A stretch of 64,000 nt of DNA from Pseudomonadota bacterium (GTDB taxonomy: Bacteria; Pseudomonadota; Alphaproteobacteria; Rhizobiales; JAKPQE01). The stretch is from positions 1 through 64,000 of the forward strand of contig JAKPQE010000110.1 in NCBI GenBank assembly GCA_029572955.1, read 5' to 3'. Shown here in pieces: positions 26,305 through 31,344 of this stretch. Below the pieces are notes generated by a model. It was not told where the DNA came from, did no database searches, and saw nothing but the letters and a program-made list of their open reading frames with translations. The position numbers were made by a program, and so were the translations under genes. Position 1 is the first letter of the stretch. Each line of letters begins with the position of its first letter.

Positions 26305-28203
26305 CTATTTCGGCAGTCCCGTCTTAGCCGCCTTTGCCGCGTCCCACCACCATACCGTCGGGAAGCCGGTGGAATATTCCGGCAGCGGGTCGGGATGGGA
26401 GAAGCGGTCCCAGCGGGCGACGCGCTCGGCCGGCAGCGTCCAGCCGGGCACGACGTAATGGTTCCACAGCAGCACCCGGTCGAGGGCGCGGCTCGCGGCA
26501 ATGAGGTCGTCGCGGTCGGTGGCGTAGATGACCCGGTCGATCAGCGCGTCGACCGCCGGATTCCGGATGCCCGGATAGTTGCGCGAACCCGCACGGTCGG
26601 CCGCCGCCGAGCCGAAATAGTCGCGCTGCTCGTTGCCGGGCGACAGCGACTGGGCCCAGCCGGTGTAGATCATCTCGAAATCGTTGGAGCGCACGCGGTT
26701 GACGTATTGCGAGGAATCGACGGTGCGCAGGTTCATGTCGATGCCGATCCGCGCCAGCGTCTCCTTGTAGCGCAGGCCGACGCGCTCGAAGGTCGGACCG
26801 TTCAAGAGGAACTCGATCGTGAACGGCGTGCCGCTCGCCTTCTCGACCATCTTGCCGCGGCGGATCTCGTAGCCGGCCTCGGTGAAGAGCTTCACCGCCT
26901 CGCGCAGATTGTCGCGCAGCGCGGCCGAATCGGCGACGAGCGGATTGGTGAAGGGCGTCGTGAAGACCTCCGCCGGCACCCGGTCGCGCAGCGGCTCGAG
27001 GATCTCCAGCTCCTTGCCCTCGGGCAGGCCGGACGCGGCAAGCTCGGTGCCGAAGAAATAGGAATCGATGCGGCTGTACTGGCCGAAGAAGATGGTGCGG
27101 TTCATCTCCTCGAAATCGAGCGCGTAGTCGAGCGCCCGGCGCACCTTGGGGTCGGCGAATTTCGGCAGGCGGCCGTTCGGCAGGAAGCCGACCATCAGGC
27201 CGCGGCCGCGCTCGGGGAACATCTCGGTGACGACGCGGCCGTCGCGTTTGGCCGGAATGTCGTAAGCGGTCGCCCAGTTCTTGGCCGAGGACTCCTCGCG
27301 CCAGTCGTACTGGTCGGCCTTGAAGGCCTGCAGCTCGACCGTCTCGTCGAGGAAATACTCGTAGCGGATCTCGTCGAAATTGTTGATGCCGACATTGACG
27401 GGCAGGTCGCGGCCCCAATAGTCGGCGACGCGGACATAGGAGATCGTGCGCCCGGCATTGACCGCGCCGATCCGGTACGGCCCGGAGCCGAGCGGCGGCT
27501 CGAGCGTGCCGGCGGTGACGTCGCGCGCCTTGCCGTTGGTGTCCGTGCCGGTCCACCAGTGCTTCGGCAGCACCATCAGCTGGCCGACGATGTGCGGCAG
27601 CTCGCGGTTGCCCGGCTGGTCGAAGGTGAAGGTCACCTCGCCCTCGCCGCTGACCTCGGCTTTCGCGACATGCTGGTAGTAGAAGGCCTGCTGCGGATTG
27701 TTGGCGGTCAGCACCTCGAACGACCAGACGACGTCCTCGGCGGTCACCGGCTCGCCGTCGTGCCAACGCGCCTCGGGCCGCAGGTGGAACGTCGCCGAGG
27801 AGAAGTCGGCCGGATAGCGCAGGCGGTCGGCGAGCCGGCCGTACATCGTCGAGGCCTCGTCGAGCGACGAGGTCATCAGCGTCTCGTAGACGAGGCCGAG
27901 GCCGTTCGGCGTGGTGCCCTTGGGGATGACGAAATTGAGCGTGTCGAACGTGCCGGTGTCGGAAAAGCGCACGAGGCCGCCCTTCGGCGCATCCGGATCG
28001 ACATAGTCGAAACGGGCGAAACCGGCGGGGTATTTCGGCTCGCCGATCAGCGCGGTGGCGTGGCGCCAGGCCGGCGCTTCGCCCTCGGCCGAGGCCGGCG
28101 CAACGCAGAAGAGGCTCGCCGCGGCAAGGACCGCGCCGGCGAGGGCCGCCAGCGACCGGGCTCGCAAGGTCGTCGATAGGGCTCGGTTCGCGCCACCCGT
28201 CAT
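26305..28203 (-). CDS. Extracellular solute-binding protein, family 5 (YejA-like)
   Basis: A 632-residue periplasmic binding protein with a signal peptide (about residues 15-40, ending APASA). The start matches YejA-type proteins (HATALIGEPKYPAGFARFDYVDPDAPKGG), followed by DTLNFVIPKG, the family-5 core RWHDGEPVTAEDVVWSFE, and near the end EMIYTGWAQSLSPGNEQRDYFGS. YejA delivers oligopeptides or microcin C-like compounds to the YejBEF ABC transporter. No permease or ATPase gene is adjacent, so its partner is encoded elsewhere. Start at 28203 gives a proper signal peptide; 28263 is an in-frame alternative. Confidence 0.92.
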   Translation of the reverse strand: MTGGANRALSTTLRARSLAALAGAVLAAASLFCVAPASAEGEAPAWRHATALIGEPKYPAGFARFDYVDPDAPKGGLVRFSDTGTFDTLNFVIPKGTTPNGLGLVYETLMTSSLDEASTMYGRLADRLRYPADFSSATFHLRPEARWHDGEPVTAEDVVWSFEVLTANNPQQAFYYQHVAKAEVSGEGEVTFTFDQPGNRELPHIVGQLMVLPKHWWTGTDTNGKARDVTAGTLEPPLGSGPYRIGAVNAGRTISYVRVADYWGRDLPVNVGINNFDEIRYEYFLDETVELQAFKADQYDWREESSAKNWATAYDIPAKRDGRVVTEMFPERGRGLMVGFLPNGRLPKFADPKVRRALDYALDFEEMNRTIFFGQYSRIDSYFFGTELAASGLPEGKELEILEPLRDRVPAEVFTTPFTNPLVADSAALRDNLREAVKLFTEAGYEIRRGKMVEKASGTPFTIEFLLNGPTFERVGLRYKETLARIGIDMNLRTVDSSQYVNRVRSNDFEMIYTGWAQSLSPGNEQRDYFGSAAADRAGSRNYPGIRNPAVDALIDRVIYATDRDDLIAASRALDRVLLWNHYVVPGWTLPAERVARWDRFSHPDPLPEYSTGFPTVWWWDAAKAAKTGLPK

Positions 28204-28335
28204 GTCGGCTCCGTTTCGCTCGATGTCCGCGTCGGGGACATTTCTTGCGACAAAAATCGGCAAGATTTGGCTCGCGGCCGATCATAGAGATGCGCACCGC
28301 CGGAAACGAGGGCGATTTCCCGTCATTTGCCCCCG

Positions 28336-28391: not shown

Positions 28392-29561
28392 TCACTGGCC
28401 CGGCAGCGGCACCGGACTGGCCGAGAGCGTGCGCAGATAGGCCATCAGATCGGCGCGCTCCTTGGCATCCTTGACGCCGGCGAAGGCCATCTTGTTGCCC
28501 GGCACGGCACCCTTCGGGTCGGTCAGGTAGGTGTCGAGGGCCGCGAAGGACCACTCGCCGCCATGACCCCTCATGGCGTCGGAGTACTTGAAGGTCTCGA
28601 CGCCGGCGACCGGACGGCCGACGACGCTCCAAAGGTTCGGGCCGACCCGGTTCGGCGCCCCTTCCTCCATGGTGTGGCAGGCGAGGCACTTCTTGGCGAC
28701 CTTCTGGCCGGCAGCGGCATCGGCGGTGGCGAGCATGGCGAGGGCGCCATCACCGGCCGGCGCGGCCGGAGCCTCGGCGGCGGCCATGCCCGACATACCG
28801 GACATGCCGTCCATCCCGGCCATACCGGACATCCCACTCATGCCTTCCAGGGCGGCCGGCGCGTCGGCGGTCATGCCGCCCATGCCCGACATGCCGTCCA
28901 TTCCGGCCATGCCCGACATGCCGCTCATGCCTTCCGGGGCAGCCGGCGCGTCGGCGGTCATGCCGCCCATGCCGGACATGCCGGACATGCCTTCCATGCC
29001 GCTCATGCCGGTCTGCTCGGCGGCCGGCAGCGGCAGCGGCGCATCGGACCGGGTGTTCAGCCAGGCGATCAGGTTGGCGCGGTCGGCGGCGGAGGCGATG
29101 CCGGCGAAAGCCATCGTTGTGCCGGGCACGTAGTCCTTCGGCTTGGTGAGATAGGTGTCGAGGTGATCGAACGACCAGGGATCGTTGTTCGCCTTCATCG
29201 CATCGGAATAGGCAAAGCCCTCGTGCGTGGCGCGGGCGCGGCCGACGATGCCCCAGAGATTCGGGCCGACCTTGTTCGGGCCGCCCTGGCTGGCGTCATG
29301 GCAGGCGGTGCACTTCTTGAAGACCTTTTCGCCGGCAGCGGTATCGGCGCCGGCAAGCAGGGTGGCGAAGGGAACGGCCTCGGCGGGCGCGGCGTCCTTC
29401 GGCGCCTCGGCGGCCGCCTGCTCCGGCGCGGCGGCCTCGAGCGCCGGGTGTTCCGGCTCGGAGGTGCCGTAGAGAAGGTCGACATAGGCGCCGATGCCGA
29501 ACATCAGCAGCACGGCACCGAGCAGCGCGCCGATCATCTTGTTGATCTGGAAGAAGTCCAT
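28392..29561 (-). CDS. Two-domain CycM-like cytochrome c with methionine-rich linker
   Basis: A 389-residue membrane-anchored cytochrome. The N-terminus (MDFFQINKMIGALLGAVLLM, anchor about residues 8-30) matches CycM-type cytochrome c552, normally one haem domain of about 180 residues that carries electrons to a terminal oxidase. Here two class I domains are present in tandem, with haem sites C84TACH88 and C292LACH296. Each is followed by the same pattern (VGPNLW, YSDAM, YLT, P..M.FAG) with an axial methionine (about M150 and M358). Between them residues 186-259 form a (Gly-Met-x) triplet stretch with about 20 methionines spaced every third residue in three blocks. The divergent neighbours kdsB-pheA are the usual neighbours of cycM in Rhizobiales. 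Confidence 0.9.
   Translation of the reverse strand: MDFFQINKMIGALLGAVLLMFGIGAYVDLLYGTSEPEHPALEAAAPEQAAAEAPKDAAPAEAVPFATLLAGADTAAGEKVFKKCTACHDASQGGPNKVGPNLWGIVGRARATHEGFAYSDAMKANNDPWSFDHLDTYLTKPKDYVPGTTMAFAGIASAADRANLIAWLNTRSDAPLPLPAAEQTGMSGMEGMSGMSGMGGMTADAPAAPEGMSGMSGMAGMDGMSGMGGMTADAPAALEGMSGMSGMAGMDGMSGMSGMAAAEAPAAPAGDGALAMLATADAAAGQKVAKKCLACHTMEEGAPNRVGPNLWSVVGRPVAGVETFKYSDAMRGHGGEWSFAALDTYLTDPKGAVPGNKMAFAGVKDAKERADLMAYLRTLSASPVPLPGQ
28785..29006 (-). repeat. In-frame tandem repeats encoding the Met-rich linker
   Basis: Three blocks, encoding residues 186-211, 212-240 and 241-259. The complete unit is 87 bp (28842-28928), that is 29 residues: seven MxG triplets then TADAPAALEG. The first block is one triplet shorter and the third is truncated after seven methionines. 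The DNA is also nearly repeated, which marks recent expansion. Confidence 0.9.
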
Positions 29562-29725: not shown

Positions 29726-30469
29726 ATGACGACCGAAGACGCACTCGTTCTCATCCCCGCCCGCATGGCGTCGACCCGCCTGCCCGGCAAGCCACTCGCC
29801 GATATCTGCGGCGCGCCGATGATCGTTCAAGTATGGCGCCGCGCCGTCGAGGCAAATGTCGGCAAGGTGGTGGTCGCCGCCGATACCGCCGAGATCGTCG
29901 AGGCGGTCCGGGCGGCCGGCGGCATGGCGGTGATGACCCGACCGGACCACCCGTCGGGCTCGGACCGCATCTTCGAGGCGCTCGCCATCGCCGATCCCGA
30001 CGGCGCCGCCCGGATCGTCGTCAACGTCCAGGGCGACCTGCCGACCATCGACCCGGAGGCGATCCGCGCGGCGATCGCGCCGCTCGCCGACCCGGCCGTC
30101 GACATCGCGACGCTCGCCGCCGAGATCGTGCGCGAGGAGGAGCGCGACAATCCGAACGTCGTCAAGGTGGTCGGCACGACGATCGCGCCGGGCCGCATGC
30201 GGGCGCTCTATTTCACCCGCGCCACCGCGCCCTGGGGCGAGGGGCCGCTCCATCATCACATCGGGCTCTACGCCTATCGCCGGACGGCGCTCGCCCGCTT
30301 CGTCGCAATGCCGCCGAGCCCGCTCGAGACGCGCGAGCGGCTGGAGCAATTGCGGGCGCTCGAGGCCGGCATGCGCATCGACGTCGCGGTCGTTGACTCG
30401 GTCCCGCTCGGTGTCGATACTCCGGCCGACCTCGAACGGGCCCGCGAAATTCTCGGAAAAAACGGATGA
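29726..30469 (+). CDS. kdsB: 3-deoxy-manno-octulosonate cytidylyltransferase
   Basis: A 247-residue enzyme that activates KDO to CMP-KDO for lipid A core synthesis. Motifs: [16 protein letters not shown] (nucleotide site), the Asp-containing [18 protein letters not shown] and [13 protein letters not shown]. The length is typical. The pheA start overlaps its stop by four bases (ATGA). It is divergent from the cytochrome gene, with 164 bases between. Confidence 0.96.
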
Positions 30470-31344
30470 TGACGACTGCCCAGCCCTCGGCCGACGCCGA
30501 GGCAGCCAACCGTATCGCCTTCCAGGGCGAACTCGGCGCCTTCTCCCACCAGGCCTGCGCCGAGGTCTTTCCCGACATGGAACCCCTGCCCTGCGCGACC
30601 TTCGAGGACGCCTTCCAGGCAGTGAAGACGGGCGCTGCCAAGCGCGCCATGATTCCGGTCGACAATTCGCTCTACGGCCGCGTCGCCGACGTGCACACGC
30701 TCCTGCCGGAGTACGGGCTCTACATCATCGGCGAGCATTTCCTGCGCATCCGCCTGCAGCTGATGGCGCCGCAGGGCGCGACCATCGCCGGGCTCGAAGC
30801 GGTGCACAGCCACACGGTGGCGCTCGGCCAGTGTCGCCGCTTCATCAAGGAACACGGCCTTCGAACCGTGGTCCAGGCCGACACCGCCGGCTCGGCCCAT
30901 CACGTCGCCGGCCTCGGCGACGTCAAGCACGGCGCGATCGCCTCGGAACTCGCCGCCGAGACCTACGGCCTCGACATCCTCGCGCCGAACATCGAGGACG
31001 CCGAGCACAACACCACGCGCTTCCTCATCCTGTCGCGCCAGAAGATCGAGGCCGATCCGCTCGACGGTCCGGCGATCACCAGCTTCGTCTTCCGCGTCCG
31101 CAACGTGCCGGCGGCGCTCTACAAGGCGCTCGGCGGTTTCGCCACCTGCGGCGTCAACATGGTCAAGCTCGAGAGCTACATGGTCGGCGGCTCGTTCACG
31201 GCGACGCAGTTCTATGCCGAGATCGAGGGACACCCGGAAGACCGGCTCGTGGCGCTCGCCCTCGAGGAGGCGCAGTTCTTCTGCTCCCACCTCAAGATCC
31301 TCGGCGTCTACCAGTCCCACCCGTTCCGGCGCATGGAGCGCTGA
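30466..31344 (+). CDS. pheA: Prephenate dehydratase
   Basis: A 292-residue stand-alone prephenate dehydratase of phenylalanine synthesis with no chorismate mutase domain. The catalytic part has [24 protein letters not shown] and the T-x-R motif in HNTTRFLIL near residue 185. A C-terminal ACT domain (about 200-280: [17 protein letters not shown]) would bind phenylalanine for feedback control. It is coupled to kdsB by a four-base overlap. Confidence 0.95.

Follow-up and report, generated by a model that had tools for sequence, protein, structure and literature searches.

A two-haem cytochrome at the kdsB/pheA locus

The window analyzed here, a 64,000-nucleotide stretch of DNA from a genome of the alphaproteobacterial order Rhizobiales, carries on its minus strand a gene for a cytochrome c in which two haem domains are joined by a linker with runs of the triplet repeat Gly-Met-x (GMx). 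The parts of the gene and the neighbors that anchor the locus are given below with their window coordinates.

28392–29561, minus strand: the whole gene, encoding the 389-aa membrane-anchored cytochrome c with two haem domains and a GMx linker
29469–29555, minus strand: N-terminal membrane anchor helix, aa 3–31 (AlphaFold2 helix; best 15-aa hydropathy 2.49)
29016–29369, minus strand: cytochrome c domain 1, aa 65–182, CTACH at 84–88, Met ligand M150 (PF00034; alignment)
28782–29009, minus strand: disordered GMx linker with 20 Met, aa 185–260, in which Ala/Pro spacers divide three GMx runs
28395–28751, minus strand: cytochrome c domain 2, aa 271–389, CLACH at 292–296, Met ligand M358 (second stretch of PF00034)
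29726–30469, plus strand: kdsB (3-deoxy-manno-octulosonate cytidylyltransferase), divergent neighbor and locus anchor (NF003948, E 1e-122)
30466–31344, plus strand: pheA (prephenate dehydratase), locus anchor (NF008866, E 1.7e-134)
26305–28224, minus strand: SBP_bac_5 extracellular solute-binding protein, downstream neighbor and locus anchor (PF00496, E 8.5e-68)

The 389-aa frame starts with ATG, and plus-strand open reading frames across its repeat stretch are shadows of the repeat. Two stretches of the protein match Cytochrom_C above the Pfam cut-off (PF00034, E 2.6e-18), each with a haem motif (C84TACH88 and C292LACH296) and a sixth ligand, M150 or M358, inferred by alignment. In domain 1, C84, C87, H88 and M150 are invariant in the alignment, which makes it a class I CXXCH domain with a Met ligand; the closest solved structures are Paracoccus c552 (3m97, 9fks) and Rhodobacter cy (6xkw). 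The two domains are identical at 62 of 104 positions (60%), and the best NCBIfam stretch falls in domain 2 (aa 278–377, CycA-like NF043008). AlphaFold2 predicts a helix at residues 3–31, two confidently folded haem domains and disorder at residues 194–269 (pLDDT 32–45). The protein begins with MDFFQINK, which aligns with the MDSFEFNK-type starts of relatives, as for an uncleaved N-terminal anchor. Anatomy, synteny and homology show the predicted product to be a CycM/cy-type, membrane-anchored periplasmic electron carrier with a duplicated cytochrome domain. This bears out two points of the original prediction: that two haem domains sit on one anchor, and that the gene is of the CycM type, usually single-haem, at the kdsB-pheA locus, where synteny with kdsB, pheA and SBP_bac_5 is conserved.

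Nearly all of the relatives that were checked keep the order kdsB-pheA, divergent cytochrome, SBP_bac_5. No other genome of the same genus was found and the family sample consists of one other genome (G001), which carries at this locus a cytochrome with one haem domain and no GMx. Among 397 genomes of the order, however, nine others carry two-domain versions here (G165, G282, G130, G072, G266, G261, G137, G106 and G029) and at least two carry three-domain versions (G325 and G362), with a third probable in G374, where the frame is broken; two-domain versions also occur in another order of the class (G430 and G731). All two-domain relatives have plain linkers of about 76–205 residues, rich in Ala/Pro/Glu/Gln or Gly/Ser, and those of the three-domain relatives are of the same kind; the linker of one relative (L192) has scattered Met and no GMx. 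In a tree of individual domains, both domains of the GMx cytochrome fall on an open polytomy that does not separate a local from an ancestral duplication, while at least one further domain pair, that of L049, duplicated independently (96/93). Of the three-haem proteins at the kdsB locus, the one in G325 (L052) has nearly identical domains 1 and 2, and thus a recent tandem duplication; that in G362 (L053) is another.

Since two- and three-haem versions recur at the same locus, the two-haem form is not itself new. The original prediction knew of no described protein of this form; for the two-haem layout this is not supported, two- and three-haem versions with plain linkers being present at the kdsB/pheA locus. 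The protein departs from the single haem domain of CycM/cy and, as read from its sequence, is a variant at a known locus. The two-haem GMx cytochrome is nonetheless real, and its linker makes it a new variant of the CycM/cy-type cytochromes.

The peptide pattern of the linker is constrained and not freshly copied

Residues 185–260 contain three GMx runs of six to seven triplets, GMSGMEGMSGMSGMGGMT, GMSGMSGMAGMDGMSGMGGMT and GMSGMSGMAGMDGMSGMSGMA, separated by the spacers TADAPAAPE and TADAPAALE. The 76 residues include 20 Met and 21 Gly with no His or Cys, as against 10 Met in the remaining 313 residues of the protein, and the longest run, 21 residues, was reached by none of 20,000 shuffles of the linker residues. 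The pattern described originally (glycine at every third position and about 20 methionines at i+3 spacing across residues 186–259) is therefore accurate, and Mx2M spacing, the Cu(I)-type MxnM motif in a flexible region, runs throughout. A collagen-like assignment was rejected: PF01391 scores 21.4 bits against a gathering cut-off of 27.2, and there is no Pro within the GMx runs.

At the DNA level, Tandem Repeats Finder reports 2.7 copies of an 87-bp unit with 84% match. The blocks had been called near-identical, but of the 29 codons compared between blocks 2 and 3, 7 differ synonymously and 8 non-synonymously, and within their GMx part pS is 0.67 and pN 0.045; block 1 has diverged further (pN 0.15–0.19). 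The blocks are thus not freshly copied: the recent repeat expansion proposed at first is not supported, and recent slippage is rejected, the differences in the GMx part being mostly synonymous.

A collapsed or chimeric repeat, arising in assembly or annotation, is very improbable. Other GMx arrays of this genome do end at contig edges, and so break assembly, but the array of the cytochrome spans only 233 bp inside a 110-kb contig, its units have diverged, the reading frame stays open across both haem domains and the flanking genes are conserved.

GMx runs recur on exported proteins of the same genome

A search of the whole genome (G000) returned 198 matches to GMxGMxGM and none to a control pattern. 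The carriers are the cytochrome gene and about a dozen other exported or anchored proteins, located as follows.

Contig C7: 97-GM secreted protein, the longest GMx
Contig C79: shorter secreted GMx protein, with a truncated paralogue on C107
Ends of contigs C97/C79: GMx lipoprotein
Contigs C68/C175: GMx LysM protein
Contig C100: GMx cyt c'-like protein
Contig C2: GMx Sel1-repeat protein
Contig C7, at 89k: GMx MotE-like protein
Contig C153: GMx DUF4384 protein
Contigs C117 and C53: further GMx proteins, one and two, respectively

Every carrier with a readable N-terminus has a signal peptide, a transmembrane anchor or a lipobox, as judged by eye and hydropathy. The linker of the cytochrome is best regarded as one example of a GMx module that occurs across the genome and is not specific to the cytochrome.

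DNA substrings shared between the cytochrome array and 13 other GMx arrays lie within a synonymous-shuffle null. The arrays thus share no more DNA than their amino acids and codon use predict, and are not recent DNA copies of one another; for the same reason, spread of the repeats by a mobile or duplicated DNA element is unsupported. Because the linker blocks vary mainly at synonymous sites and the arrays have no excess of shared DNA, it is the peptide pattern that selection holds: the GMx run of the linker is under purifying selection, with the peptide kept while the DNA drifts.

This constraint bears on the simplest account, that GMx is just the low-complexity sequence this lineage uses in linkers and tails, with no special role for Met. 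The two-haem relatives all have linkers of about 76–205 residues built from other residues (Ala/Pro/Glu/Gln or Gly/Ser), shorter GMx runs occupy linkers and tails of unrelated exported proteins of this genome, and the linker of the cytochrome is predicted to be disordered, all as a passive tether would have it. Yet the amino-acid sequence of the runs is constrained, a linker built with Met is both expensive and oxidizable, and GMx abundance follows one molybdoenzyme across genomes (see below); we regard the passive tether as somewhat unlikely.

GMx arrays also lie at contig ends, both in this genome (C68, C79, C97, C107 and C175) and in others (G164 C21/C40, G136 C15 and G394 C79). Because draft assemblies break at such repeats, GMx proteins go under-reported and the lengths of their arrays are uncertain.

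GMx abundance follows a molybdoenzyme operon

Downstream of the 97-GM gene lie genes for a pentahaem cytochrome and for a DmsA-like molybdoenzyme with a Tat signal, together with a DmsB-like FeS protein and a TorD-like chaperone; a ferredoxin-like protein and a sensor kinase are encoded there as well. The DmsA-like enzyme scores 603 bits against TIGR02166, below the family cut-off of 777.7. By tblastn, the core of pentahaem cytochrome and molybdoenzyme stands beside GMx genes at 12 loci of other Alpha- and Betaproteobacteria, five alphaproteobacterial (L001-L003, L006 and L007) and seven betaproteobacterial (L011-L014, L016, L020 and L021), the molybdoenzyme matching at 74–81% identity. The same cluster is present in Rhodobacterales and Betaproteobacteria, including on a Rhodobacter plasmid where its annotation is generic only. 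Searches of the open-access literature turned up no account of the GMx operon. The cluster at L163:2538-10461 (G000:C7), seen also at L001, L013, L176-L178 and L196, is conserved and apparently undescribed; besides the genes above it includes a small secreted protein, its kinase is a histidine kinase, and its Gly-Met-x polymer carries W-x-C-T-Q-[WY] motifs.

Within the order, the molybdoenzyme is found in 15 of 397 genomes (E ≤ 1e-200). All 15 have at least seven matches to GMxGMxGMxGM, compared with 3 of the 382 enzyme-less genomes (G001, G334 and G062; Fisher p = 1.5e-24 over the 397 genomes), where the threshold of seven was set after the counts were seen and the sample is phylogenetically clustered, the enzyme-bearing genomes spanning eight families. 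One GMx run outside this association is in G334, where a phosphatase/haloperoxidase-like protein with no evident signal peptide has (GMA)12 close to its start (L183:7944-9413).

In several of the clusters (L001-L003, L006, L007 and L245; for instance L001:3267-4775 and L245:634-2406) a CycM-like cytochrome domain and the pentahaem protein form a single fusion. These fusions link CycM-type domains to the GMx/molybdoenzyme system. They are also what one might expect if GMx stretches on different envelope proteins associate with one another, or with the GMx protein encoded in the molybdoenzyme operon, and so gather cytochromes and molybdoenzyme into an assembly for electron transfer, perhaps switched by Met oxidation. 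The cytochrome and the cyt c'-like protein have GMx in common with the protein of that operon, and an oxidation-switched phase separation has a precedent in the Met-rich domain of yeast ataxin-2 (cited in PMC7402097 as its reference 4). Shorter GMx runs, however, occur on proteins that have no obvious part in redox chemistry (Sel1-repeat, MotE-like and LysM), and we consider docking as the role of the repeat quite improbable.

The operon also weighs on the suggestion, made originally, that the linker binds Cu(I); its Mx2M motifs would then buffer copper or deliver it together with electrons to a haem-copper oxidase. The Mx2M spacing is real and GM-rich inserts occur elsewhere in multicopper-oxidase-type proteins (L019:2214-4274 and L147:1108-2724). 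However, the linker lacks His and Cys, the conserved neighbors of GMx genes are the pentahaem cytochrome and the molybdoenzyme and not copper genes, and the annotated neighbors of the cytochrome include no copper-handling gene, nor do those of the main GMx operon show copper-gene linkage. We consider a Cu(I)-binding cytochrome improbable; the inserts at L019 and L147 offer a natural control for a copper role.

A possible methionine sink at the cell envelope

Our tentatively preferred reading, held with a little less than even confidence, is that the protein is a CycM/cy-type carrier whose linker serves as a methionine sink, with a molybdenum S-oxide reductase reversing the oxidation. The two tethered haem domains would let electrons hop between partners without diffusion. 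The linker, usually a disordered Ala/Pro/Glu-rich tether in relatives, has turned into a GMx run in the source lineage. We infer both the sink function of GMx and the recycling of its Met: most likely, GMx runs would serve as reversible sinks at the cell envelope, their thioethers taking up oxidants such as H2O2 or hypohalous acids to give Met-sulfoxide, which could then be re-reduced by the DmsA-like enzyme of the longest-GMx operon, by MsrP, or by both. On the cytochrome, such a sink might shield the two haem domains, or else would place oxidizable Met near haem.

Related chemistry is known: Met-rich MrpX/BcrX scavenge HOCl together with MsrPQ (PMC8315932, PMC4623255), and DorA is described as reducing protein-bound Met-sulfoxide, faster on a G-M(O) peptide than on ...GYM(O)E... 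(PMC7402097). The genome has one MsrP-type gene, on contig C131. The cytochrome and the molybdoenzyme operon lie on different contigs and are not co-localized, and the CycM homologues examined in other molybdoenzyme genomes all lack GMx.

Since the potentials of class I His/Met cytochromes are normally high, electrons could pass either to or from the molybdoenzyme, and the DmsA-like enzyme could run as an oxidase. A wider reading, possible but held with somewhat lower confidence than the sink in the linker, takes GMx as the part that can be seen of a redox system of the envelope that has not been described before, in which an exported polymer would form a reversible thioether/sulfoxide pool, a dedicated enzyme of the DMSO-reductase family would charge and discharge it via the pentahaem (sometimes CycM-fused) cytochrome, and the polymer would also be built into the two-haem cytochrome linker and other envelope proteins.

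On its own, the cytochrome is a variant of a familiar carrier, and the genome-wide GMx pattern and its partner operon matter more. The near-perfect co-occurrence of GMx with the DmsA-like enzyme across Alpha- and Betaproteobacteria points to a candidate substrate for that enzyme, protein-bound Met-sulfoxide, and makes directly testable the question of whether bacterial methionine polymers act as rechargeable redox buffers.

Comparison with known systems

Paracoccus CycM (c552) and Rhodobacter cy share with the GMx protein an N-terminal anchor, a disordered acidic or Ala-Pro stretch and a class I domain, but the known forms have one haem domain where the GMx protein has two, joined by GMx. Membership of the CycM/cy class would also entail carrying electrons from bc1 to a terminal oxidase. 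Closer in layout are the two- and three-haem CycM-type relatives (such as L047-L054, L185-L187, L192 and L193), with the same kdsB/pheA locus, anchor and tandem domains; their linkers are of similar length but consist of Ala/Pro/Glu/Gln or Gly/Ser instead of GMx. Tandem class I domains working as a tethered electron relay are also found in actinobacterial cytochrome cc (QcrC) and dihaem cytochrome c4, which differ in lineage, locus and anchor and have no Met-rich linker.

For the linker itself, the nearest parallels are MrpX/BcrX (Azospira yedYZ-mrpX and Brucella bcrXQP), for which sacrificial Met oxidation has been proposed (PMC8315932, PMC4623255). As in those systems, the GMx sequence is exported, Met-rich and of low complexity, a description that the linker of the two-haem cytochrome fits, and a molybdoenzyme is genetically linked. 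MrpX/BcrX, however, are stand-alone peptides encoded with MsrP (with an MXKDX repeat in Brucella), whereas GMx here is a linker within a cytochrome, and in place of an operon of MsrP/MsrQ with ECF sigma and anti-sigma factors its neighbors are kdsB, pheA and SBP_bac_5. The molybdoenzyme linked to GMx also differs from the MsrP of MrpX/BcrX, belonging to the DMSO-reductase family and being accompanied by a pentahaem cytochrome.
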